A DNA stretch of 24,586 nucleotides, from the IMG/VR virus record IMGVR_UViG_3300050821_002751, positions 1 to 24,586 of that record. One strand, 5' to 3'. Of the stretch, positions 1,772 to 20,779 are shown in pieces. Origin of the DNA: a virus. Position numbers and translations under genes: made by a program. The first letter of the stretch is position 1. Each line of letters begins with the position of its first letter. The notes below the pieces were generated by a model. That model was not told the DNA's origin, did no database searches, and saw nothing but the letters and a program-made list of their open reading frames with translations.

Positions 1772-3601
1772 ATGTCTTATCAACCAGCGTCAGTCTTAAC
1801 GACTACCGCAGGATTAAGTCATCTAGCTAGCATTTATTATGACCGCGTAGCCGTAGAAAACCTAAAAGCTAATCTACCCTTCGTGGCCGTCACCAGCCGT
1901 CGTAAATTGCCCGACCGTAACGGTCGTGTAATTCAACTTTACGGTTACGACCTTTTCGCGGCAAACACTACGCCCGGAACGGAAGGAACTGTAGGTACCG
2001 GTATTAACCCAACTACTTCGGTTAGAAACGTCGCTGTAAATCAATATTTCGATTTCGCGTCGTTTTCTGACATCTTAGTTGAAACAGCAATCGACCCGAT
2101 TGTTGAAAATACTGCTGCCGAGATGGGCTACCGCGCCGCATTAACCGCGAACACGTTAGCTCGTACCGAGTTTGAAGCTGAGGCTACCGCCGATTCCACC
2201 ATCGTTATTTCCTGTACTGACAACGAATTTTTATCTGCATCGTTGACCCGTCAGGCTGTAATGAGTCTTCGTGGAGCAGACGTGAGACCCCAGACGGATG
2301 GCTTGTTTGCCGGGATCATTCACCCGTTCGCAGCGTTCGACCTTTCACGGGGTCGTAATCTCCCTAATTCGGTTAACCACTCATCGAGTAAAAACCGAGC
2401 TAAGCCAACGCAAGTTGGAATGTGTAGAGACTATATAGGAGAGGCCAAAAGCCAAGAGATAGTCCGAACTGCATGGCGACATGCAGAGCTACGTGGAAAC
2501 ACCGTAGCCACGCAGAAATGCGGGGTAACAGATTGTTTGAACGATAATACTGCGGGTGGCGTGATTGACATCCTGAAGTACCACAAAGAAGGAAGCGAAG
2601 AATTAATGCGCGGTGTCCAAGGATACCGTGTCATTGATGTTGCTGGAGCGCGTTTCATCGAAACGACTACCGCAAGCACTTTCGCTAGCTTCCCAAGCGG
2701 TACCAAGACCGGCTATGGCACCTACGTTGTTGGACAGGACGCAGTGTTCTCGGTATCACTAGGAGCAACCGAAATTCCCGAACAACGGAATTCAATAATG
2801 ATGGATTCCTAATCGAGCTATATCCGTTAATCTGTTGCTGTGGTAGTATCAGTAGTTAGGAACTATCAACCCCAACACAAGACGGAGGTAAGACGCCGTG
2901 GATAAAATAAAATTTGCGCAATTAGCGATGGCTATTGATTGCGAGGGCAGTATAGGGATCAGGCGTAGCGTCCAAAAGCATTACGCTAAAACTGGTCTTC
3001 CAATTTATAGTTATACAGCAAGTTTTAGGATTCACAATACAGATAATCGTCTTCTGGACTGGCTTCAGCATAATTTTGGTGGCAATATTTATGCTGGCCG
3101 TACATGGGCCGACAAACATAACAAGCCATGGAAAACATCGCGTGAATGGATGCTATGTCTCGGCAGTGAGCGCGGAGAACAACTAATACTGGCAGTGATG
3201 CCATATTTGTTGATAAAAGATAAGCAAGCGCAACTAGCCCTAGATTTTATTCGGATAGGGCGAGTTAACAAGCCAGAAGAACGTGAGCGAATGTGGTTGC
3301 AGATGAAGCAACTTAACAAACGCGGCGTTACCCCAACGACTAATACGCTCGACGCCGCATAGGCGAAGATAGAGTCTGGACTGCATGGCGACATGCAGAA
3401 TGGTTTAAGGGTGACCTTAAATGCTAATAACTAAACGATCAACTCATAGTCAGGAACTGGGAACCTAGCGTGGCCGATCCAGCAAGAGTAGTGGGCGCTT
3501 CATGCGCGTACAATTTCAAGTATGCGGCAATGAGAGTACCCCAGAGTGCGGCACTCCACCCCAGATTCCGGCTTATCAAAGCGGAAGCGTCCATCTCATA
3601 G
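1772..3601 (+). CDS. Major capsid protein, N4-gp56 type, split by two group I introns
   Basis: HK97-fold major capsid protein building the icosahedral head. Proposed join: 1772-2343, 2536-2792 and 3450-3601, giving 981 nt and 326 aa. Exon 1 has the N4-gp56-type N-terminus (YYDRVAVENLKANLPFV, LPDRNGRVIQLYGYDLF, TTPGTEGT, SDILVETAIDPIVE, GLFAGIIHPFAAFDL). Exon 2 continues directly with LNDNTAGGVIDILKYH and YVVGQDAVFSVSLGATEIPEQRN. Exon 3 supplies WEPSVADPARVVGA...YNFKYAAMRVP...RLIKAEASIS, a typical family C-terminus, ending at TAG 3599-3601. Junction codons are CT|T (Leu191) and T|TC (Phe277), so the frame is kept across both. Without splicing the ORF reads 64 intron-encoded residues, stops at 2812 and loses the C-terminus. 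A terminator follows at 3616-3648. The first junction could also be 2344/2540, losing one residue. Confidence 0.85.
2344..2535 (+). ncRNA. Group I intron 1 (IA2/td-like), ORF-less, in the MCP gene
   Basis: Self-splicing ribozyme candidate of 192 nt. P1: exon 2338-2343 (CGACCT) pairs with internal guide 2350-2355 (GGGTCG), ending in the required U.G pair at the 5' splice site. P6-like hairpin: CCAAC-GCAA-GTTGG, 2405-2418. P7: 2429-2434 (GACTAT) with 2459-2464 (ATAGTC), inside R- and S-like elements GTAGAGACTA and AAGAGATAGTCC. P8: GGC/GCC, 2443-2453. P9: 2469-2486, CTGCATG-GCGA-CATGCAG, matching the P9 hairpin I recall for the T4 td intron. P9.1 (2488-2508) and P9.2 (2511-2522) both end in GAAA loops. 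The omega G is 2535. Removal restores the capsid motif across the junction. The P3-P5 pairings were not resolved. Confidence 0.8.
2793..3449 (+). ncRNA. Group I intron 2 (IA2/td-like) with endonuclease ORF
   Basis: 657-nt ribozyme candidate. P1: exon 2787-2792 (GGAATT) pairs with guide 2804-2809 (GATTCC), ending in U.G. A possible P10 pairs exon 3 TCA (3450-3452) with TGA 2799-2801. The S-like element GAAGATAGAGTC (3365-3376) follows a P8-like CGCC/GGCG hairpin at about 3352-3364. P7 5' is probably GACT near 3340. P9 (3381-3398) is identical to P9 of intron 1, and P9.1 (3404-3421) is TTTAAGG-GTGA-CCTTAAA. The omega G is 3449. Splicing at these points joins EQRN to F-RNWEPSVADPAR in frame. The endonuclease gene (2898-3362) sits where the td ORF does, upstream of P7, and its last codons overlap the P7/P8 region. 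Confidence 0.78.
2898..3362 (+). CDS. LAGLIDADG homing endonuclease encoded in intron 2
   Basis: 154 aa. It has a single LAGLIDADG-type motif at residues 7-18 (AQLAMAIDCEGS), so it would act as a homodimer. The acidic residues D14 and/or E16 would bind the catalytic metal. The rest fits the fold: a beta segment FRIHNTDNRLLDWL, then a C-terminal helix region AVMPYLLIKDKQAQLALDFI typical of the family. It would cut intronless MCP alleles at the insertion site and so spread intron 2. The start is GTG 2898, supported by GGAGG at 2884-2888, nine nt upstream. The stop at 3360-3362 lies in the P8 loop, so the C-terminal tail is read from ribozyme core sequence. Free-standing activity is assumed, not shown. 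Confidence 0.82.
   Translation: MDKIKFAQLAMAIDCEGSIGIRRSVQKHYAKTGLPIYSYTASFRIHNTDNRLLDWLQHNFGGNIYAGRTWADKHNKPWKTSREWMLCLGSERGEQLILAVMPYLLIKDKQAQLALDFIRIGRVNKPEERERMWLQMKQLNKRGVTPTTNTLDAA
3450..3601 (+). other. Exon 3 of the MCP gene (C-terminal 50 residues)
   Basis: This stretch has no start codon of its own and would look non-coding to a gene caller. In the frame set by splicing it reads RNWEPSVADPARVVGA, then SCAYNFKYAAMRVPQS, then a basic end RLIKAEASIS and TAG. This is the expected C-terminal beta strand and tail of N4-gp56-type capsid proteins. It is the strongest evidence that the capsid gene continues beyond the stop at 2812. Confidence 0.8.
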
Positions 3602-3615
3602 ATAACAAACAACTT

Positions 3616-3648
3616 ACACCCCGTAGAAATATGGGGTGTTTTTCTTTT
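3616..3648 (+). terminator. Rho-independent terminator after MCP
   Basis: A 7-bp stem ACACCCC (3616-3622) / GGGGTGT (3633-3639) with a 10-nt loop is followed by TTTTCTTTT. It begins 15 nt after the capsid stop codon at 3601, so it separates the abundant capsid transcript from the modification cassette. Its position also supports 3601, not 2812, as the true end of the capsid gene. Confidence 0.75.
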
Positions 3649-3670: not shown

Positions 3671-3934
3671 ATGAAAGATGACACTCAGCAGGCGCTTTTC
3701 GATAAAGGCGAATGGTGGGATGAACATTGGCAGGGAATGCCAGAATTTGACCAACCGCCAAAAGAACCATTCGCCATAATAGTAGTCAGATTTCGCAACC
3801 AAGAAGATTTGGACGATTTCGCACAAAAAATAGGCCAAAAACTCAACCGAAACTCACAATCTACGTGGCACCCTGAACTCAAAAATGGTGAACTCGGGAA
3901 TTCTCTGTCACGACGATACGTGGATGAATCCTAG
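3671..3934 (+). CDS. Small conserved phage protein paired with TAGT glycosyltransferase
   Basis: 87 aa from ATG 3671 (AAGG just upstream); an in-frame ATG at 3647 lies in the terminator tail and is less likely. The core is WQGMPEFDQPPKEPFAIIVV, then RFRNQEDLDDFAQKIGQKL and a final STWHPE. I know this pattern (MPEF, a beta strand, F-x5-D-x2-F, IGQ, S-x-W-x-P) from small proteins next to phage DNA-modification genes, sometimes described as ParB-like. No catalytic motif is evident. It overlaps the next gene by 11 nt, suggesting co-translation and a partner role for the glycosyltransferase. Confidence 0.6.
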   Translation: MKDDTQQALFDKGEWWDEHWQGMPEFDQPPKEPFAIIVVRFRNQEDLDDFAQKIGQKLNRNSQSTWHPELKNGELGNSLSRRYVDES

Positions 3935-4799
3935 CTTCCCAATCTACGTGGTCTCGAAGGGCCGATGGAATAGCCGCCTAACGATCAAAGCCCTAGAAAG
4001 AATGCGTGTTCCATATCGGGTAGTGGTTGAAGAACAAGAGTATGCCCAATACGCTTGGGAAATAAGCCCCGACAACATTCTTATCCTTCCCATTCGCTAC
4101 AAAGATGATTACGACACATTTTGGCCTAGGGGTGAAGATAACAAGACAGGCTCAGGGGCGGCGCGTAATTTCTGTTGGGACCACAGTATTGAATCGGGAG
4201 CTAATTGGCATTGGGTAATAGATGACAACATTGATGGCTTCTTTCGGCTGAATCGCAACACGAAATTGATTGTCGATACGGGCGCAATTTTTGCAGCGGC
4301 GGAAGATTTCGTTACTCGGTATGAAAACGTACCGCTAGCGGGCTTTAATTACTGTAAGTTTTGCAAGTCGGAAGATGCCGCTCCGCCGTTTATTCGCAAT
4401 ACCAGGGTTTATTCTTGTCTGTTGATTAGGAATGACTTACCGCTGAGATGGCGGGGACTATACAACGAAGACGTGGATTTATCATTGCGCGTTCTTAAAA
4501 GTGGATATTGCACGATTCAATTCAACGCTTTCTTGTGTGAGAAGCTGACGACGCAGAAGATGTCCGGGGGGAATACGGATGAACTGTATACCGAAGGAAC
4601 CCTCAAGAAATCTCAGATGTTGGCCGAGATGCATCCCGACGTGGCCCGTGTAGTATGGAAGTTTGATCGCTGGCATCATCAAGTGGACTACGGCCAGTTC
4701 AAGCGGAATCAGCTACGGTTTCGCCCTGGTGTGGTTATCAAAGAAGGGATCGACAACTACGGTATGGTGCTGAAAGAACTAGCATCCAAACCCGCCTAG
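3924..4799 (+). CDS. TET-associated-type glycosyltransferase (TAGT), GT-A fold
   Basis: 291 aa. The N-terminus FPIYVVSKGRWNSRLTIKAL, then VVVEEQEYAQYAW and NILILP, is the signature of the TAGT family. TAGT enzymes were proposed from comparative genomics to glycosylate hydroxymethylated bases in phage DNA. The acidic metal/nucleotide-sugar site is probably HWVIDDNIDGFFR (about residues 95-107), preceded by AARNFCWD; a second acidic site is GLYNEDVDLSLRVLKSG (about 175-191), usual in GT-A enzymes. I chose ATG 3924, overlapping the end of the upstream gene, because homology-like sequence begins there; ATG 3885 would add 13 residues. No TET/JBP dioxygenase or thymidylate-synthase-like base hydroxymethylase lies in the window, so the acceptor is unknown. 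Confidence 0.7.
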   Translation: MNPSFPIYVVSKGRWNSRLTIKALERMRVPYRVVVEEQEYAQYAWEISPDNILILPIRYKDDYDTFWPRGEDNKTGSGAARNFCWDHSIESGANWHWVIDDNIDGFFRLNRNTKLIVDTGAIFAAAEDFVTRYENVPLAGFNYCKFCKSEDAAPPFIRNTRVYSCLLIRNDLPLRWRGLYNEDVDLSLRVLKSGYCTIQFNAFLCEKLTTQKMSGGNTDELYTEGTLKKSQMLAEMHPDVARVVWKFDRWHHQVDYGQFKRNQLRFRPGVVIKEGIDNYGMVLKELASKPA

Positions 4800-4828
4800 C
4801 CGCCATCCAATACGAAGGACTGAAGTGC

Positions 4829-5026
4829 ATGAAAAACACAACCCTACTCCGCCTGAACATCCGCGAAGTCCTAGCTCTACACTGTACGGCTGTGGCCGAG
4901 CATAATCTTTCCGGGCGCTTGTGTGACGAAGCCTGCGACAAATGCGAAGAAATGGAAGACGCGCTACTCCAAGCCGTGGAGAACTGGCGACTCCGCGCCT
5001 ATAAGACAACTAAAGGCAAAATCTAA
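4829..5026 (+). CDS. Small Cys-containing hypothetical protein
   Basis: 65 aa, starting at ATG 4829 with GAAG/GGA-rich sequence upstream. It is mostly helical and has a C-x3-C-x2-C cluster (LCDEACDKCEEMED, about residues 31-44) that could bind a metal. No family recognised. It lies between two glycosyltransferase genes in the same direction. Confidence 0.45.
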   Translation: MKNTTLLRLNIREVLALHCTAVAEHNLSGRLCDEACDKCEEMEDALLQAVENWRLRAYKTTKGKI

Positions 5027-5056
5027 GCATTCCCGCAACTCCCTTAAACTTGGGGA

Positions 5057-6034
5057 ATGCGCGTCCTCTTTGTCCTGAAACTTGGGAATTATGGCTTCAG
5101 TCCTACCGTGATTTCTAGCGGCCTCTTCAATTCTGCACAATTTATCGTAGACATGCTCAATGCCAATGGGCAAATAGCCAAGCTCGTTCAAGTCGTAGAT
5201 AACAACTCCATCGACAAAGAAGTCACAAAGTTTCAACCCGACTTGGTAGTGATTGAAGCGCTGTGGGTGGTACCGACTAAGTTCGCCGTTCTTACCAAGC
5301 TTCACCCCAAAGTACAATGGGTAGTTCGGGTTCACAGTGATTTGCCGTTTCTATCCCATGAAGGCGTAGCCATGGACTGGCTATTCGCCTATCCCCAGTA
5401 TCCAAATGTTTCCATCGCTTTTAATGACAAACTCACTGCCAGCGAATTTAGCTTCCTAATTCCCGGGAGCGTAAGCTATCTCCCTAATTACTATCCGCCG
5501 ATTTTTAAGAAACCTATGGGAACGATGTTAAATCCCATAAAAATCGGATGCTTCGGAGCCATCCGCCCACTGAAGAATCAGTTAGTGCAAGCCATGGCAG
5601 CGATTCTATATGCCAAGAAATCCATGCGAGCCATGGAATTCCATATCAACTCGACTCGCATTGAAGGCGGGGAATCTATCCTGAAAAATGTGCGGGAGTT
5701 ATTTGTAGCGACTCATAGCACACTGATTGAACATCCCTGGTTAGACCATGTAGATTTCTTGAAGTTGGTTTCGACCATGGGTATCGTCATGGCGGTTTCG
5801 CTTTCGGAAACCTTTTGTATTACCGCCGCTGATGCCGTAGCCAGTGGCATCCGCTTAATTTGTTCCGATCAAGTTCCCTGGGCCGATGCTAGTTCAATCG
5901 TGTGCGCAACCAACGTCGATGCCATCGTTTCCAAATTGGATGATTTATCTGGCATTTCTACTAAGGCGAATCAGAAGAAACTGCGGCAATATTCCAATCA
6001 ATCGGAGCAGATTTGGCTGAACTATTTAGGATAG
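5057..6034 (+). CDS. GT-B fold glycosyltransferase (GT4-like)
   Basis: 325 aa. The N-terminus MRVLFVLKLGNYG is the first strand of a GT-B Rossmann domain. The C-terminal half carries the donor-binding domain: IKIGCFGAIRPLKNQ (about 156-170), VDFLKLVSTMGIVMAVSLSETFCITAADAVASG (about 230-262) and LICSDQVPW. The S-E-T-F-x3-AADAVASG stretch corresponds to the E-x7-E nucleotide-sugar motif of GT4 enzymes, with the second Glu replaced (ETFCITAAD). The substrate is unknown. A GGGGA ribosome-binding site directly precedes ATG 5057. It would transfer a sugar within the cassette, either to DNA or to a virion or surface acceptor. Confidence 0.7.
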   Translation: MRVLFVLKLGNYGFSPTVISSGLFNSAQFIVDMLNANGQIAKLVQVVDNNSIDKEVTKFQPDLVVIEALWVVPTKFAVLTKLHPKVQWVVRVHSDLPFLSHEGVAMDWLFAYPQYPNVSIAFNDKLTASEFSFLIPGSVSYLPNYYPPIFKKPMGTMLNPIKIGCFGAIRPLKNQLVQAMAAILYAKKSMRAMEFHINSTRIEGGESILKNVRELFVATHSTLIEHPWLDHVDFLKLVSTMGIVMAVSLSETFCITAADAVASGIRLICSDQVPWADASSIVCATNVDAIVSKLDDLSGISTKANQKKLRQYSNQSEQIWLNYLG

Positions 6035-6043
6035 AATGCTGCC

Positions 6044-6199
6044 ATGACCCAGGAAGAAGCTGAACTTGAGCAAATTGTAATCAATGCCCAAATTGATCGT
6101 CTCATGGTGGATTTCAGGTTTCCCTACAGTTGTTCGAGCGGTTGCGGCTATCCTGTACCCACCCCCGGTCCCTGCGGAGAATGTTTTGGGAGCACGTAA
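6044..6199 (+). CDS. 51-aa Cys-rich mini-protein
   Basis: ORF of 51 codons starting 9 nt after the glycosyltransferase stop. An acidic helix (EEAELEQIVINAQIDRLMVD) is followed by CSSGCGYPVPTPGPCGECFG, with four Cys as C-x3-C and C-x2-C, a plausible zinc knuckle. The tidy Cys spacing and the junction position argue for a real gene, although it overlaps a longer frame. Function unknown. Confidence 0.45.
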   Translation: MTQEEAELEQIVINAQIDRLMVDFRFPYSCSSGCGYPVPTPGPCGECFGST

Positions 6200-6434
6200 C
6201 GCCATTCCGAACTGGCCACGCGGCAAATCGACAACCACCGCTTGGAGTAATACCCGCTGGCAAGATGCAGAAAACATCTGCGCGTGGCCCTATTATCTCA
6301 GCCCTGACTTCCAAATGGATCTGTTTTATGACAAGCTACAGCACAAAGACCAGCAGGCCATGATCGACCACTGGTTTGCCAACTACCGCGAAGGTCATTA
6401 CAAACAACACACCGTCTTTGTTAATCTCAGGTAG
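6186..6434 (+). CDS. Small hypothetical protein
   Basis: The frame is open from ATG 6084, but the first third overlaps the Cys-rich mini-gene and looks like shadow. From TTG 6186, with GGAG a few bases upstream, it gives 82 aa: GARNAIPNWPRGKST, WQDAENICAWPYYLSPDF, then a helical end. Trp/Tyr-rich composition and residues such as FYDKLQHKDQQAMIDHWF suggest a folded product. No family recognised. The start is uncertain. Confidence 0.4.
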   Translation: MGARNAIPNWPRGKSTTTAWSNTRWQDAENICAWPYYLSPDFQMDLFYDKLQHKDQQAMIDHWFANYREGHYKQHTVFVNLR

Positions 6435-6532
6435 TGCCCCTGCCCTGGTATCAGCGAAGGCCGTGGAAATGGGGCGCGGAACTAGTTTTCTGGGGTGCGG
6501 GAATTGTAATCAATCTATTTCGAAAGAACTAA
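6434..6532 (+). CDS. 32-aa putative membrane micro-protein
   Basis: A GTG start overlaps the preceding stop (TAGTG), implying translational coupling. The product has a basic N-terminus (WYQRRPWKW), one hydrophobic span (GAELVFWGAGIVINLF) and a basic end RKN. It lies in a gap otherwise left empty. It could be a small membrane effector or just a chance frame. Confidence 0.35.
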   Translation: MPLPWYQRRPWKWGAELVFWGAGIVINLFRKN

Positions 6533-6533
6533 A

Positions 6534-6752
6534 ATGACCTATGGCTCAGGAACTCGAAGTTATAACCGCTCTGCCGAGAAACGGGAAGCAGATAAGAAGC
6601 GTAAGCTAGCGACTGAACAGTTCCAAGCGAAACCTGATTCGGTGATCGTCGGTCCAATCTGTAACTGCCGAAGTTTCCGCTTTCCCCATTTTCTTCCCAG
6701 CCATAACTCGCTCAGATCAAAGCACGATTGGCGAAGTTGGAAAGATAGATAA
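6534..6752 (+). CDS. Small protein with CxC/His C-terminal motif
   Basis: 72 aa from ATG 6534, two nt after the previous stop. The N-terminus is basic and helical (SAEKREADKKRKLATEQF). The C-terminus ICNCRSFRFPHFLPSHNSLR then DWRSWKDR combines C-x-C with two His. I associate this arrangement with small phage proteins of unknown role, and it could bind zinc. No function proposed. Confidence 0.5.
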   Translation: MTYGSGTRSYNRSAEKREADKKRKLATEQFQAKPDSVIVGPICNCRSFRFPHFLPSHNSLRSKHDWRSWKDR

Positions 6753-6753
6753 C

Positions 6754-7452
6754 ATGGCCTACTACCCAGCATCCATGCTCATGCCTGACATGGCTCCTAC
6801 CACGGACGGCATCCTAAATTCTTACTCGCCTACGTCTGTACTGTCGAAACTAGGAACTACCGTGATGTACATTGTCAGGCATGGGGAAGTAGACAACGAC
6901 AAGCAACACGTAGTCCGTGGACTAATCAACCAATCCCTAAATGACAAAGGGAAAAAAGATGCCAAAAAGATTGCAGATTATTTTAAGGATATTGATGTGG
7001 GGGGCGTGGCTACGGATGATCTTAACCGTACCCGCGAAACGGCTCTACCGATTGCCATAGAAAAAGACGAAGAACTAGAAATGAACCCCTACTTACGTTC
7101 CTGGCATTTGGGCACTGAAATTGAGGACCATCCCATCGAAGAAGTAGATGCCGACATCCTTGATTTTAAGAACCATCCTGATAAACTCCCGGTCGGAGGG
7201 GAATCCTACGGCGAGTTTTATGATGAATGCATCGAGGCATTCAATAAATACCTCGAACGCTCCATGAGTGGAAAGCCGTGGGTGGTAGTGACGCATGGGA
7301 GTTTTATTCAGGCCATCTTTGCACATCTCGGGGAGAAGATCGACCAGAGCTACGCGGCTATACCCATTGGTCCCGCAGGGATCATCGCCATTGTCTTAGG
7401 CCGAGACGGCTTCAAGCCGAAAATCCTAGAAGGCTCGAACGTAGGCGAATGA
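6754..7452 (+). CDS. Histidine phosphatase family protein (phosphoglycerate mutase-like)
   Basis: 232 aa. After a 36-residue N-terminal extension comes MYIVRHGEVDND (about 38-49), the RHG signature whose His is phosphorylated during catalysis. TDDLNRTRETA (about 87-97) holds the conserved Arg, and VVTHGSFIQAI (about 177-187) the second catalytic His. A conserved-looking Glu/His region (SWHLGTEIEDHP) lies between. The fold dephosphorylates small phosphoesters such as sugar phosphates, nucleotides or phosphoglycerate; the substrate here is unknown. Within a sugar-transfer cassette it may act on a phosphorylated sugar or nucleotide. An ATG at about 6865 just before YIVRHG could be an alternative start. 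Confidence 0.75.
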   Translation: MAYYPASMLMPDMAPTTDGILNSYSPTSVLSKLGTTVMYIVRHGEVDNDKQHVVRGLINQSLNDKGKKDAKKIADYFKDIDVGGVATDDLNRTRETALPIAIEKDEELEMNPYLRSWHLGTEIEDHPIEEVDADILDFKNHPDKLPVGGESYGEFYDECIEAFNKYLERSMSGKPWVVVTHGSFIQAIFAHLGEKIDQSYAAIPIGPAGIIAIVLGRDGFKPKILEGSNVGE

Positions 7453-7467
7453 CGGGGCACATCCCAA

Positions 7468-7497
7468 GTACATTAAATGTACCCCATCAAACGGGGT
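7468..7497. repeat. Palindrome and overlapping hairpin between convergent genes
   Basis: GTACATT-A-AATGTAC (7468-7482) is a perfect 7-bp inverted repeat with one central base. It overlaps a second hairpin ACCCC (7481-7485) / GGGGT (7493-7497). No strong T-tract follows on either side, so it is a weak bidirectional terminator candidate for the histidine phosphatase gene and the convergent minus-strand gene, or an operator. Confidence 0.4.
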
Positions 7498-7536
7498 TCC
7501 GCATCCGAACCTAGTTTACACAGCCTAAAGATTCTG

Positions 7537-7884
7537 TCAAGCTTTTTTCTTCATGAATCCCGGCAACTCCCCCCGATCCATGCGTGCCTTGGCCACGGCT
7601 TTACTCGCGATGCTGCGGCTGCGGGCCGTGAGTGCATCCTTCTGCCGCTGTATCGCTTGGGATACTTTCGGCGGAAGAATTAATCTTTTGACGCCATCTT
7701 TATCCACGAACTTGATGACAATGTTGTCACCCTTCTCATCGCGAATGGTTTGGATGATGAAGGTTTCAGTCTCGCCTGTCATGGCTGCGTTCTCTATGGT
7801 TGTAGGTTTGGTTTCGAGGTTGTTCCCTCCCTGTAGTCCACTGTACTGCTTGTCGAACTTTGAGATAGTGTGATCGTTTTCCAT
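7537..7884 (-). CDS. Minus-strand conserved-looking phage protein
   Basis: 115 aa from ATG 7884, chosen because GGAGGAG lies just upstream; an earlier ATG at 7899 is possible. The middle reads FIIQTIRDEKGDNIVIKFVD then GVKRLILPPKVSQAIQRQKD, a beta-rich part followed by a long basic helix (ALTARSRSIASKAVAKARM) and the end GELPGFMKKKA. The pattern suggests a small nucleic-acid-binding protein, but I know no named family. It runs against all neighbours, like a moron gene with its own expression. The plus-strand frame opposite is its shadow. Confidence 0.6.
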   Translation of the reverse strand: MENDHTISKFDKQYSGLQGGNNLETKPTTIENAAMTGETETFIIQTIRDEKGDNIVIKFVDKDGVKRLILPPKVSQAIQRQKDALTARSRSIASKAVAKARMDRGELPGFMKKKA

Positions 7885-11829: not shown

Positions 11830-12710
11830 AGATTCTTTTTCTCTCTAATGGAGATAAGCCCGATTACCAGCAAGATACGGTGCTCCATGGCCTTAAAATG
11901 CTCATGGGCGACGATATTATCGACTACCGTAGATCGTGGTATATGTACGCCGATTCCTTTGGTGAGGGCAAGGCCAATCTAAAAGAGTTGTACGGTCGTG
12001 GTTTTACGCTCTATGGGTTATTGCCATCCGACGCGGGAGTTGATCGTACCGACATCGTAGAAAAAATCAAAGCGAAATTTTTTGATTACATCATATATGG
12101 TGGAATCCAACGGAATCAAGCTTTTTATGGCGGCGTGATAGAAACCTATCCCCCTTCGCGTGTCATTTTTATCGACGGAGAAGACTGCCCCCAGGCGCTT
12201 AATATCTACAAGTTTGGGACGTATTTCAAGCGCGAATTGCTTGGTGATGCCTACGACTTCTTGCCTATCCACTTTGGGATACCAAAAGAGAAGATCGTTA
12301 CAGGAATACCGGCCAAGACTAGGTTTATGGCAGAATACGATCCACTTGTCAATCGCACCTATTTATATGATGACGAAGAGGCGTACTACAAGTCATATCG
12401 GGACAGCTTTTTTGGTTGCACCATGAAAAAGTCTGGCTGGGAGTGTATGCGTCATGCGGAGATATTAAGCCAAGCCTGCCTGCCGTACTTCAGAGTTCTC
12501 GATGGTGCCCCCTATACCGTGATGCATCGCCTGCCGCGAAAGGAACTGCTGTTGGTCATGAACTTAATCGAGTACGGTGCTGCGGGATGCGAGACCGCCA
12601 AAGATTTCTACTACAGGGTTATCGAATCGGTAATGCGGCACGTTCGGGAAAATCTCACCACGGAATCTGTGGCGAAATATGTTCTTGATACCGTTGCGGC
12701 CATCAAATAG
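11826..12710 (+). CDS. Putative GT-B-like protein of unknown specificity
   Basis: 294 aa, starting ATG 11826 overlapping the methyltransferase stop. MKILFLSNGDKPDYQQDTV is a first GT-B-type strand and loop. RVIFIDGEDCPQALN and YFKRELL-x8-LPIHFGIP resemble spacer regions of CgeB-like sugar transferases. The C-terminal part SYRDSFFGCTMKKSGWECMR then HAEILSQACLPYFRVLDGAPY fits the donor-side helix/loop of these enzymes (conserved HAE-IL-x-GC-P-F pattern). Assignment is by pattern only; it could be a non-catalytic relative. The operon context supports a sugar-transfer role. Confidence 0.5.
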   Translation: MKILFLSNGDKPDYQQDTVLHGLKMLMGDDIIDYRRSWYMYADSFGEGKANLKELYGRGFTLYGLLPSDAGVDRTDIVEKIKAKFFDYIIYGGIQRNQAFYGGVIETYPPSRVIFIDGEDCPQALNIYKFGTYFKRELLGDAYDFLPIHFGIPKEKIVTGIPAKTRFMAEYDPLVNRTYLYDDEEAYYKSYRDSFFGCTMKKSGWECMRHAEILSQACLPYFRVLDGAPYTVMHRLPRKELLLVMNLIEYGAAGCETAKDFYYRVIESVMRHVRENLTTESVAKYVLDTVAAIK

Positions 12711-12720
12711 AATCGGGCCA

Positions 12721-13329
12721 ATGAAACGCGGAAATATCAGATTTATCTGCAAACATTGTGGCAAAGAATCGCTTGTATTCCCGGCAGACGTTCGCAAGGG
12801 CGGCGGTGTTTTCTGTAGTTTTGCTTGCCGAGTTGCCTACAAAAAAGAGCATGGGGTTCCGTTCGATAGAAAGAAATGGCATGATGCTTGGTACCAAGAG
12901 CACAAGGAGCACGTCAAGGCACGAGATGCGACTAGAAAGGCTGCCGACCCCGAGGCGTGGAAGGCAAAGAAAAATGCATCGCAGCGACGTAGGCGTGCGG
13001 CTAATCCAGAACCCTTTAGGGAAGCAGCTAGGAGACATAAAATGAAAAACCCAGCCTATCATCGTCCAGGCCATTACAAGAGAAAATACGGAGTTACGGT
13101 TGAATTTGTGAAGGCGGAAGTTGCGGCTCAAGGAAACCGTTGCAAGATTTGCAATGAAGAATTTGTTAAAACTCCACATGTAGACCATGACCACGTTACC
13201 GGAAAGTATCGCTCCATGTTAGATTTTGGCTGCAATCGTGGGCTTGGCTGCTTTAAGGACGATCCTGCGCTTATATTCAAATCCCTACTCTACTTAGTCA
13301 ACCACAAAACTATCCCGACCATCAGCTAG
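12721..13329 (+). CDS. Endonuclease VII-like HNH endonuclease with N-terminal zinc finger
   Basis: 202 aa from ATG 12721. N-terminal zinc finger: FICKHCGKESL-x10-GGVFCSFACRVAYK. A basic linker follows with repeats of the type AADPEAWKAKKN and AANPEPFREAAR. The C-terminal endonuclease VII-type domain holds CKICNEEF, then VDHDHVTGKYR (about 152-162, catalytic His/Asp) and GCNRGLGCFKDDP. The family normally has a second C-x2-C before the Asn (LLC-x2-CN); here it reads MLDFGCN, so one zinc ligand is an Asp. These genes are usually free-standing homing nucleases or junction resolvases. It sits just upstream of a virion gene, typical for a mobile nuclease. Confidence 0.72.
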   Translation: MKRGNIRFICKHCGKESLVFPADVRKGGGVFCSFACRVAYKKEHGVPFDRKKWHDAWYQEHKEHVKARDATRKAADPEAWKAKKNASQRRRRAANPEPFREAARRHKMKNPAYHRPGHYKRKYGVTVEFVKAEVAAQGNRCKICNEEFVKTPHVDHDHVTGKYRSMLDFGCNRGLGCFKDDPALIFKSLLYLVNHKTIPTIS

Positions 13330-16649: not shown

Positions 16650-17330
16650 ATGCCATTTGAAAAAGGGTATACGCCATGGAACAAGGGCAGGAAGATGGAC
16701 GAGGCATTTTGCGAAACCCTGCGGAACAAGCCATGGAAACCACGCCTAGAAGTGCCAATTGGTAAGGTTTTCGGTTGGCTTACGGTGATTGGTTTTGGTG
16801 AGCCAAGACAAATGAAAGGCTCCGCTTCTTCGCATCGCCAAACATGGCTTGGGGCAACTTGGCAATGTAGGTGTGAATGCGGCGCTATTATTGAGTGTAT
16901 CCCCGACAGGCTTCGAAGTGGAGCGAACAAGAGTTGCGGGTGTAAGCGAGCGAAGTATAGCAGTGCAGATGCGGCTGCGCGTGATCTATACACGATGTAC
17001 AGGGCGAGCGCCATAAAGCGCGGCCTAGAGTTTTCTATTTCGTTGGAACAATTTTTGACCATTACTTCTGAAGAGTGTTTTTTCTGCCCCGCGTTACCCT
17101 CAAACCCACATTATGCTAGACATAAACGCAAGCGCGTTGAAAACATGCCATACATATCGAATGGCATAGACAGACTAGACAATAACCTGGGATATACAAC
17201 TCGTAATTGTGTACCTTGTTGCGCTACCTGCAATGCAATGAAAAGCGACCACACCTACGACGCTTTCATTTCCAAATGCAGAGAAATAGTGACAAAACAC
17301 GATACCCGCCAAGCGCAATCAGCCGCTTAA
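16650..17330 (+). CDS. HNH homing endonuclease with NUMOD3-like N-terminus
   Basis: 226 aa from ATG 16650. GYTPWNKGRK (residues 6-15) is a NUMOD3-type DNA-binding motif. A central Cys module WQCRCECGAIIECIPDRLRSG...KSCGCK (about 71-99) is frequent in phage HNH enzymes. The HNH core is CFFCPALP, then SNGIDRLDNNLGYTTRNCVP and CCATCNAMKSDHTYDAFISK, with the catalytic site in GIDRLDN and zinc held by the C-x2-C pairs. It probably acts as a free-standing homing nuclease; no group I intron signature flanks it. Confidence 0.8.
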   Translation: MPFEKGYTPWNKGRKMDEAFCETLRNKPWKPRLEVPIGKVFGWLTVIGFGEPRQMKGSASSHRQTWLGATWQCRCECGAIIECIPDRLRSGANKSCGCKRAKYSSADAAARDLYTMYRASAIKRGLEFSISLEQFLTITSEECFFCPALPSNPHYARHKRKRVENMPYISNGIDRLDNNLGYTTRNCVPCCATCNAMKSDHTYDAFISKCREIVTKHDTRQAQSAA

Positions 17331-20254: not shown

Positions 20255-20779
20255 ATGGGGTGCGTATACGCAATCGTGAACGATATAAATGACAAGATTT
20301 ACATTGGGCAGACCAAACGAACGCTGAAGCAACGGTGGAATGAATATCGAACTCACCGCAAAGATGACGGCACAATAAACAGAGCTATTTTTAAATATGG
20401 CCGCGAGCATTTCTATCCAAGCGAAATTATCCAAGCCGATACCCAAGAGAAGTTGGACGAATGGGAAACGATGCTAATCTTACTTATGAAATCTAGCGAC
20501 GGGGAATATGGTTACAATCTTTCTACTGGTGGTGACCATCCCGTATTGACTCCAGAAATCTGCAAACAGCGAGGAGACAGAATGCGAGGAAAACCACGTA
20601 TTCTGCACGTAGAACACACTGCCGCTTTTGGTAGACCATTGTCCGAACACCATAAGCAACGCCTTCGTGAAGGATGGAAAAAAAACCCCGAGTTAGCAGA
20701 GGAACGTAGAGCTAAACTACGCGGAGATTGGTCACGTAAAGGTACTGAAATAAGATGGGGTAAGGAGAAAGGTAGCTAA
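20255..20779 (+). CDS. GIY-YIG homing endonuclease with NUMOD3-like tail
   Basis: 174 aa from ATG 20255, without a good ribosome-binding site. The GIY-YIG module is CVYAIVNDINDKIYIGQT (residues 3-20), followed by LKQRW with the catalytic Arg, then KYGREHFYPSEII and the likely catalytic Glu in KLDEWETMLI. GYNLSTGGDHP ends the nuclease domain. The tail GRPLSEHHKQRLREGWKKN is a NUMOD3-type DNA-binding motif. It splits the tail tubular A-like and B-like genes, which are normally adjacent. No intron core is visible, so it seems free-standing. GGAGG at about 20203, after the upstream gene, may be the former ribosome-binding site of the tubular B gene. Confidence 0.82.
   Translation: MGCVYAIVNDINDKIYIGQTKRTLKQRWNEYRTHRKDDGTINRAIFKYGREHFYPSEIIQADTQEKLDEWETMLILLMKSSDGEYGYNLSTGGDHPVLTPEICKQRGDRMRGKPRILHVEHTAAFGRPLSEHHKQRLREGWKKNPELAEERRAKLRGDWSRKGTEIRWGKEKGS

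Follow-up and report, generated by a model that had tools for sequence, protein, structure and literature searches.

Which protein does the major capsid protein (MCP) gene of this phage specify? In the window, the whole stretch of DNA analysed (24,586 bases, a 24.6-kb fragment from IMG/VR), a gene finder outputs a 346-aa open reading frame (ORF) at 1772-2812. A sequence-only reading had instead proposed a capsid gene split by two group I introns. The comparisons below support a phage MCP gene with two self-splicing group I introns, a 330-aa HK97-fold product and an I-CreI-like endonuclease encoded by intron 2. We put the probability of this reading at roughly 0.96, with splicing and homing inferred from sequence.

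Exons and product of the capsid gene

The gene and its immediate surroundings were resolved into the following features.

1772-2343, + strand: MCP exon 1, codons 1-190 and two bases of codon 191, last base U2343
2344-2535, + strand: group I intron 1, 192 nt, with no ORF of its own
2536-2792, + strand: MCP exon 2, last base U2792
2793-3437, + strand: group I intron 2, 645 nt, with a homing-endonuclease gene
2898-3362, + strand: LAGLIDADG homing-endonuclease gene (HEG), 154 aa, GTG start, inside intron 2
3438-3601, + strand: MCP exon 3, including the stop codon (3599-3601)
3616-3639, + strand: terminator-like hairpin 3' of MCP, followed by TTTTCTTTT

Comparison with intronless relatives establishes this exon structure at the level of sequence: the window MCP gene is interrupted at 2344-2535 and 2793-3437. 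Exon 1 is collinear with 18 intronless relatives, exon 2 was delimited by join scoring and by a spliced aligner, and exon 3 corresponds to the C-terminal end shared by all intronless relatives. The 18 relatives with an uninterrupted gene (79-88% identity) all encode 330 aa and carry neither insert. When all frame-preserving joins were scored against the intronless relatives, 2792/3438 was the unique best (167.8; runner-up 162.2), and it places a U at the exon end and a G at the intron end (G3437). The spliced aligner, purpose-written and supplied only with an MCP profile and the U/G rule, returned 2344-2535 and 2793-3437 for the window unaided and predicted no introns in 25 intronless controls. 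The predicted spliced junctions join GACCT to TTTGAAC (intron 1) and GGAATT to ATCAACTC (intron 2).

The first join proposed earlier, 2343/2536 (U2343, G2535), is right and yields FAAFDL-LNDNTAGG. The second, 2792/3450 with the intron ending at G3449, had to be moved to 3438: it implies a junction of GGAATT with TCAGGAAC and loses four residues (YQLIV replaced by F) present in every intronless relative. All uninterrupted relatives read EQRN[FY]Qx[IT]VRNWEPS at this join, and over the 3450 site and the bases immediately before it the window reads AT CAA CTC ATA GTC AGG AAC TGG. The spliced product is consequently 330 aa (EQRNYQLIVRNWEPS), not the 326 aa first proposed, and matches the length found in 18/18 uninterrupted relatives. 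The in-frame C-terminal exon that annotation misses was correctly anticipated; it runs to the stop codon just before the terminator-like hairpin.

The exons carry the mark of selection on a joined protein. The window gene and those of its four closest relatives (L014, L019, L020 and L025) all yield, once spliced, exactly 330 aa, for L019 with a 41-nt insert also left out. The four spliced products are 96.7-99.1% identical to that of the window in amino acids and 78-84% in nucleotides; change is mainly synonymous, and where dN/dS could be calculated for exons it did not exceed 0.05. In exon 3, synonymous change against the four relatives is near saturation and amino-acid changes are few. The L019 insert (4335-4375 of that record) lies out of frame after YYD, begins with a stop codon and is too short for a group I intron; an assembly error, a bypass element or decay are candidate explanations.

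Could the 346-aa ORF itself encode the true capsid protein, one that carries 64 inserted residues and stops short at the C-terminus, leaving 3438-3601 as debris? Intron 1 is a multiple of three in length and open in the MCP frame, and the ORF is what the gene finder gives. Both the insert and the early end at 2812 are absent from every relative, however, and exon 3 has kept a nearly identical protein despite saturated synonymous sites. Intron 1 read as protein gives a dN/dS of 1.6 between the window and L020 (six differences only), and four of these six amount to compensatory changes in two base pairs, one in P7 (positions 90/117) and one in P9.1 (151/158). We consider this alternative very improbable and regard the ORF as a spurious consequence of an intron that happens to be open in frame.

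The spliced MCP matches the major head protein family phrog_1357 (PHROG, E 1.4e-20), and a predicted model of an intronless relative's MCP has the HK97 fold, matching phage capsids including those of N4 and GP4. The earlier label of an 'N4-gp56-type' protein thus survives in part: the phage N4 capsid is among the top structural matches, but Pfam gave no match for the MCP, the N4-gp56 sequence family included, and its likeness to the N4 capsid is structural only, as judged from the model. No relatives of the MCP were found among bacterial and archaeal genomes. Upstream, a non-coding MCP leader of ~200 nt (1568-1771) is conserved in close relatives (GGGAGTGTTAGTGCAAGCACGTTAGCC, GCGGCGATCCCG, GGGCTTGTCATCT); it has no Rfam match and only a weak consensus secondary structure. 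The gene directly 3' of MCP (3885-4799) encodes a TET-associated glycosyltransferase domain (Pfam TAGT, E 1.6e-43), hinting at modified bases in the phage DNA.

Ribozyme fold and encoded endonuclease

Both introns show the hallmarks of group I that had been noticed earlier: helices including P7, a P1 with U.G and a terminal G.

2338-2355, + strand: P1 of intron 1, exon 2338-2343 (CGACCU) with 2350-2355 (GGGUCG), U.G at the 5' splice site, 6 pairs
2359-2442, + strand: P3 of intron 1 (2359-2364 with 2437-2442), enclosing P4-P6; 6/6 column pairs covary in 12 cores
2429-2464, + strand: P7 of intron 1 (2429-2433 with 2460-2464), pseudoknotted with P3; 95% of cells paired
2469-2486, + strand: P9 hairpin of intron 1, identical to that of intron 2
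2787-2809, + strand: P1 of intron 2, exon 2787-2792 (GGAAUU) with 2804-2809 (GAUUCC), U.G at the splice site, 6 pairs
2799-3441, + strand: possible P10 of intron 2, 2799-2802 (UGAU) with the exon 3 start 3438-3441 (AUCA)
3338-3376, + strand: P7 of intron 2 (GACU 3338-3341 with AGUC 3373-3376) around P8 (3353-3356 with 3362-3365), from alignment A2 and covariance-model alignment
3381-3398, + strand: GCGA-capped P9 hairpin of intron 2 (direct repeat D1); helix 7, 100% paired

Covariation was assessed in 12 intron cores from which the HEG ORFs had been cut out. RNAalifold alone recovered a consensus P3, P4, P5, P6, P8, P9 and P9.1, with 29 of 36 pairs doubly changed. When P7 was added as a pseudoknot, 91.1% of cells across P3-P9 were paired and 32/41 pairs had changed on both sides. 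None of 500 shuffles reached the observed covariation, and support collapsed when the pairing was slid by one to three columns. Pairing in P7 is kept through change: between the window and L020 an A-U pair is swapped for G-C in intron 1, and in L023 GACU/AGUC has become GAGC/GCUC. The P1 of intron 1 was equalled in 3 of 1000 shuffles; that of intron 2 was equalled in 144 of 1000, which makes it weak alone and indistinguishable from chance. The possible P10 comes from inspection of the sequence and is consistent with the 3' splice site as corrected.

A covariance model (R2) built from nine relatives' introns, excluding those of the window and the near-identical L020 copy, detects both window introns: intron 1 at 132.9 bits (E 5.6e-34) and the 3' half of intron 2 at 44 bits (E 1.2e-10). 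A further model, R1, matches both halves of intron 2. The introns behind R1 and R2 were initially found via the MCP gene, so both models are biased towards MCP introns, and their E-values are rough. The Rfam search suggested earlier gave a divided answer: a gathering scan of the window returned nothing, and in E-value scans the window introns reached 20.2 and 22.3 bits with Intron_gpI (overall range 16-22 bits), below the gathering score of 50, whereas two sister introns passed it at 68.3 and 53.6 bits. The cut-off score is not a defining trait of group I introns. Taken with the intronless and intron-bearing relatives and the purifying selection across the joined exons, covariation and an independent model bear out the earlier claim of an MCP split by two group I introns.

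These data also bear on two other explanations. The inserts might be inteins, other in-frame insertions or group II introns, as the in-frame position of intron 1 would allow; we regard this as the least probable of the alternatives, since stop codons interrupt the frame in intron 2, domain searches turned up neither an intein nor a reverse transcriptase, and the P3/P7 pseudoknot, P1 U.G, terminal G and sister Intron_gpI matches are group I features. Alternatively, the introns might be degenerate, splicing lost and the MCP gene dead. The scores below the Rfam cut-off would agree with this, and the record is a 24.6-kb fragment. Against such decay, splicing would yield a full-length product that is 98.5-99.1% identical to those of two relatives and under purifying selection, the helices have been kept through compensatory changes, and the HEG is intact; a dead gene is highly unlikely.

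Under the favoured reading of two functional group I introns, each intron RNA would fold into a P3-P9 ribozyme core, with the 5' splice site held in P1 as a U.G pair. Splicing would be begun by a guanosine bound in P7, and the 3' splice site would be marked by the terminal G (2535, 3437). Joining of 1772-2343, 2536-2792 and 3438-3601 would then give the 330-aa HK97-fold capsid protein.

The sequence-only reading made no mention of the LAGLIDADG gene in intron 2, whose family assignment rests on a profile, a structural model and comparison with other HEGs. Its LAGLIDADG motif is intact (LAMAIDCEG), its profile matches I-MsoI/I-CreI, and its predicted structure matches I-CvuI/I-CreI. The protein has the motif with an acidic catalytic residue and the alpha-beta-beta-alpha-beta-beta-alpha fold of an I-CreI-like enzyme; Pfam LAGLIDADG_1 scores it at 14.5 bits, below the threshold of 23.1. 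Its identity is 35% with the HEG of the L040 MCP intron and 28% with that of L025, and in all three introns the last HEG codons overlap the 5' strand of P7. Back-translated peptides retrieved no HEG relatives from viral_contigs; related HEGs surfaced only through reading of relatives' introns. Three more endonuclease genes lie in the window (12679-13329, 16650-17330 and 20255-20779), two endonuclease VII-like and one GIY-YIG. No intron model matched around them, and they are therefore probably free-standing.

Introns across relatives and their possible movement

The window groups with its four closest relatives in a single supported clade (99/97), every member of which bears introns. Their MCP genes hold 11 introns (window 2, L014 1, L019 3, L020 3, L025 2) at eight sites (codons 33, 191, 204, 277, 281, 301, 308 and 322). 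The codon 191 site is occupied by three different introns (window/L020, L023 and L025), and several MCP introns have their closest kin at other sites, a pattern that repeated gain would produce. A DNA pattern scan blind to gene content added distant phages with two to about six group I introns per MCP, whose exact splice sites are approximate. L083 has six within 3.5 kb (4320-7808, covariance-model matches), and L087, L084, L080, L077, L085, L089 and L091 are further multi-intron cases. The view that two introns in one capsid gene are uncommon accordingly holds for phages at large but not here, where the four closest relatives have one to three each and distant ones up to about six.

Outside MCP, no introns were found in 13 whole records with R1, a model built from MCP introns, or in seven with the Rfam model. 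Related introns outside MCP were seen in distant records, at L087 10308-10802 (where MCP is also split) and L095 1872-2138, the latter flanked by a protein with no PHROG match. R1 matches in phage tRNA-region introns, from a second DNA pattern, were set aside on flanking sequence only. The HEG-bearing MCP intron of L040 (5535-6146) has a P1 with U.G and ends in A, not the usual G, at the only join fitting its relatives. A preference of insertion sites for residues more conserved than random was unsupported (P 0.34-0.70).

Intron 1 differs between the window and L020 at only 6/192 positions, and it lies within a tract where 28/390 exon positions differ (7%), compared with 133/600 (22%) outside (Fisher P 1.1e-10; 0/5000 codon permutations). 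No other relative shows a comparable drop in divergence around intron 1. Such a shared tract is consistent with co-conversion as the intron was transferred, but ordinary recombination is another possible source. As intron 1 lacks an endonuclease, its mobility would require one in trans or ordinary recombination. The intron 2 endonuclease, for its part, would cut intronless MCP alleles of co-infecting phages and so have the intron copied across.

A broader model, to which we give about even odds, is that MCP is a dedicated group I intron hotspot in this lineage: related introns would move between many sites (9 around the window, with up to about six introns per gene in distant relatives) and be absent from everything else in the ~100-kb records, and the driving force would be LAGLIDADG endonucleases directed against the capsid genes of co-infecting rivals.

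Relation to known systems

For the window phage and its relatives, standard annotation gives a wrong MCP, which includes an insert, lacks its C-terminus and leaves the last exon unnoticed, and phage taxonomy and marker searches based on MCP will miss or truncate such genes. Close relatives with differing intron content in one essential, highly expressed gene offer a natural system for the spread of group I introns and their clustering in one gene. They also allow one to ask whether capsid-targeting endonucleases are weapons between co-infecting phages, a role demonstrated for the intron endonuclease of a jumbo phage (PMC11620839).

Phage genes with several introns are already known, as are introns in capsid genes. 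The lineage-wide capsid hotspot appears undescribed; the open-access literature yielded no paper dealing with capsid introns of this lineage, and the report of the related Acidobacteriota phage Tunturi 3, whose MCP is 33% identical to that of the window, does not mention introns (PMC11924767). Jug phages have about 18 introns per genome (PMC12363816). Two or three group I introns in one gene occur in Bastillevirinae and Twort (PMC11878797, which cites Landthaler and Shub 1999 for Twort orf142); the split genes there are DNA polymerase, terminase and orf142, and PMC11878797 mentions no capsid introns. In a zeta-group crAss-like phage (OLRF01000054), the MCP ORF is broken into five parts separated by group I intron domains (PMC7886860). 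MCP is likewise split there, but these gut phages are unrelated and many of their genes carry introns and inteins, whereas the records of the window's close relatives show introns only in MCP.

At the level of the RNA, the window introns share with Rfam RF00028 (Intron_gpI) the P3-P9 core order and the P7/P3 pseudoknot, scoring below its cut-off where sister introns score above. The endonuclease shares with I-CreI, I-MsoI and I-CvuI the single-motif LAGLIDADG fold and an origin in group I introns; those enzymes come from organellar introns and show ~20% identity in the structural match, whereas the window HEG sits in a phage capsid intron. Mycobacteriophage LittleE also has a capsid-gene group I intron with a LAGLIDADG-like ORF, the splicing of which was demonstrated by RT-PCR and N-terminal sequencing (PMC3706429). 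This siphovirus has a single intron, whose ORF lies on the opposite strand; the window gene, for which splicing is predicted from sequence, has two, and its HEG lies within the core on the sense strand.
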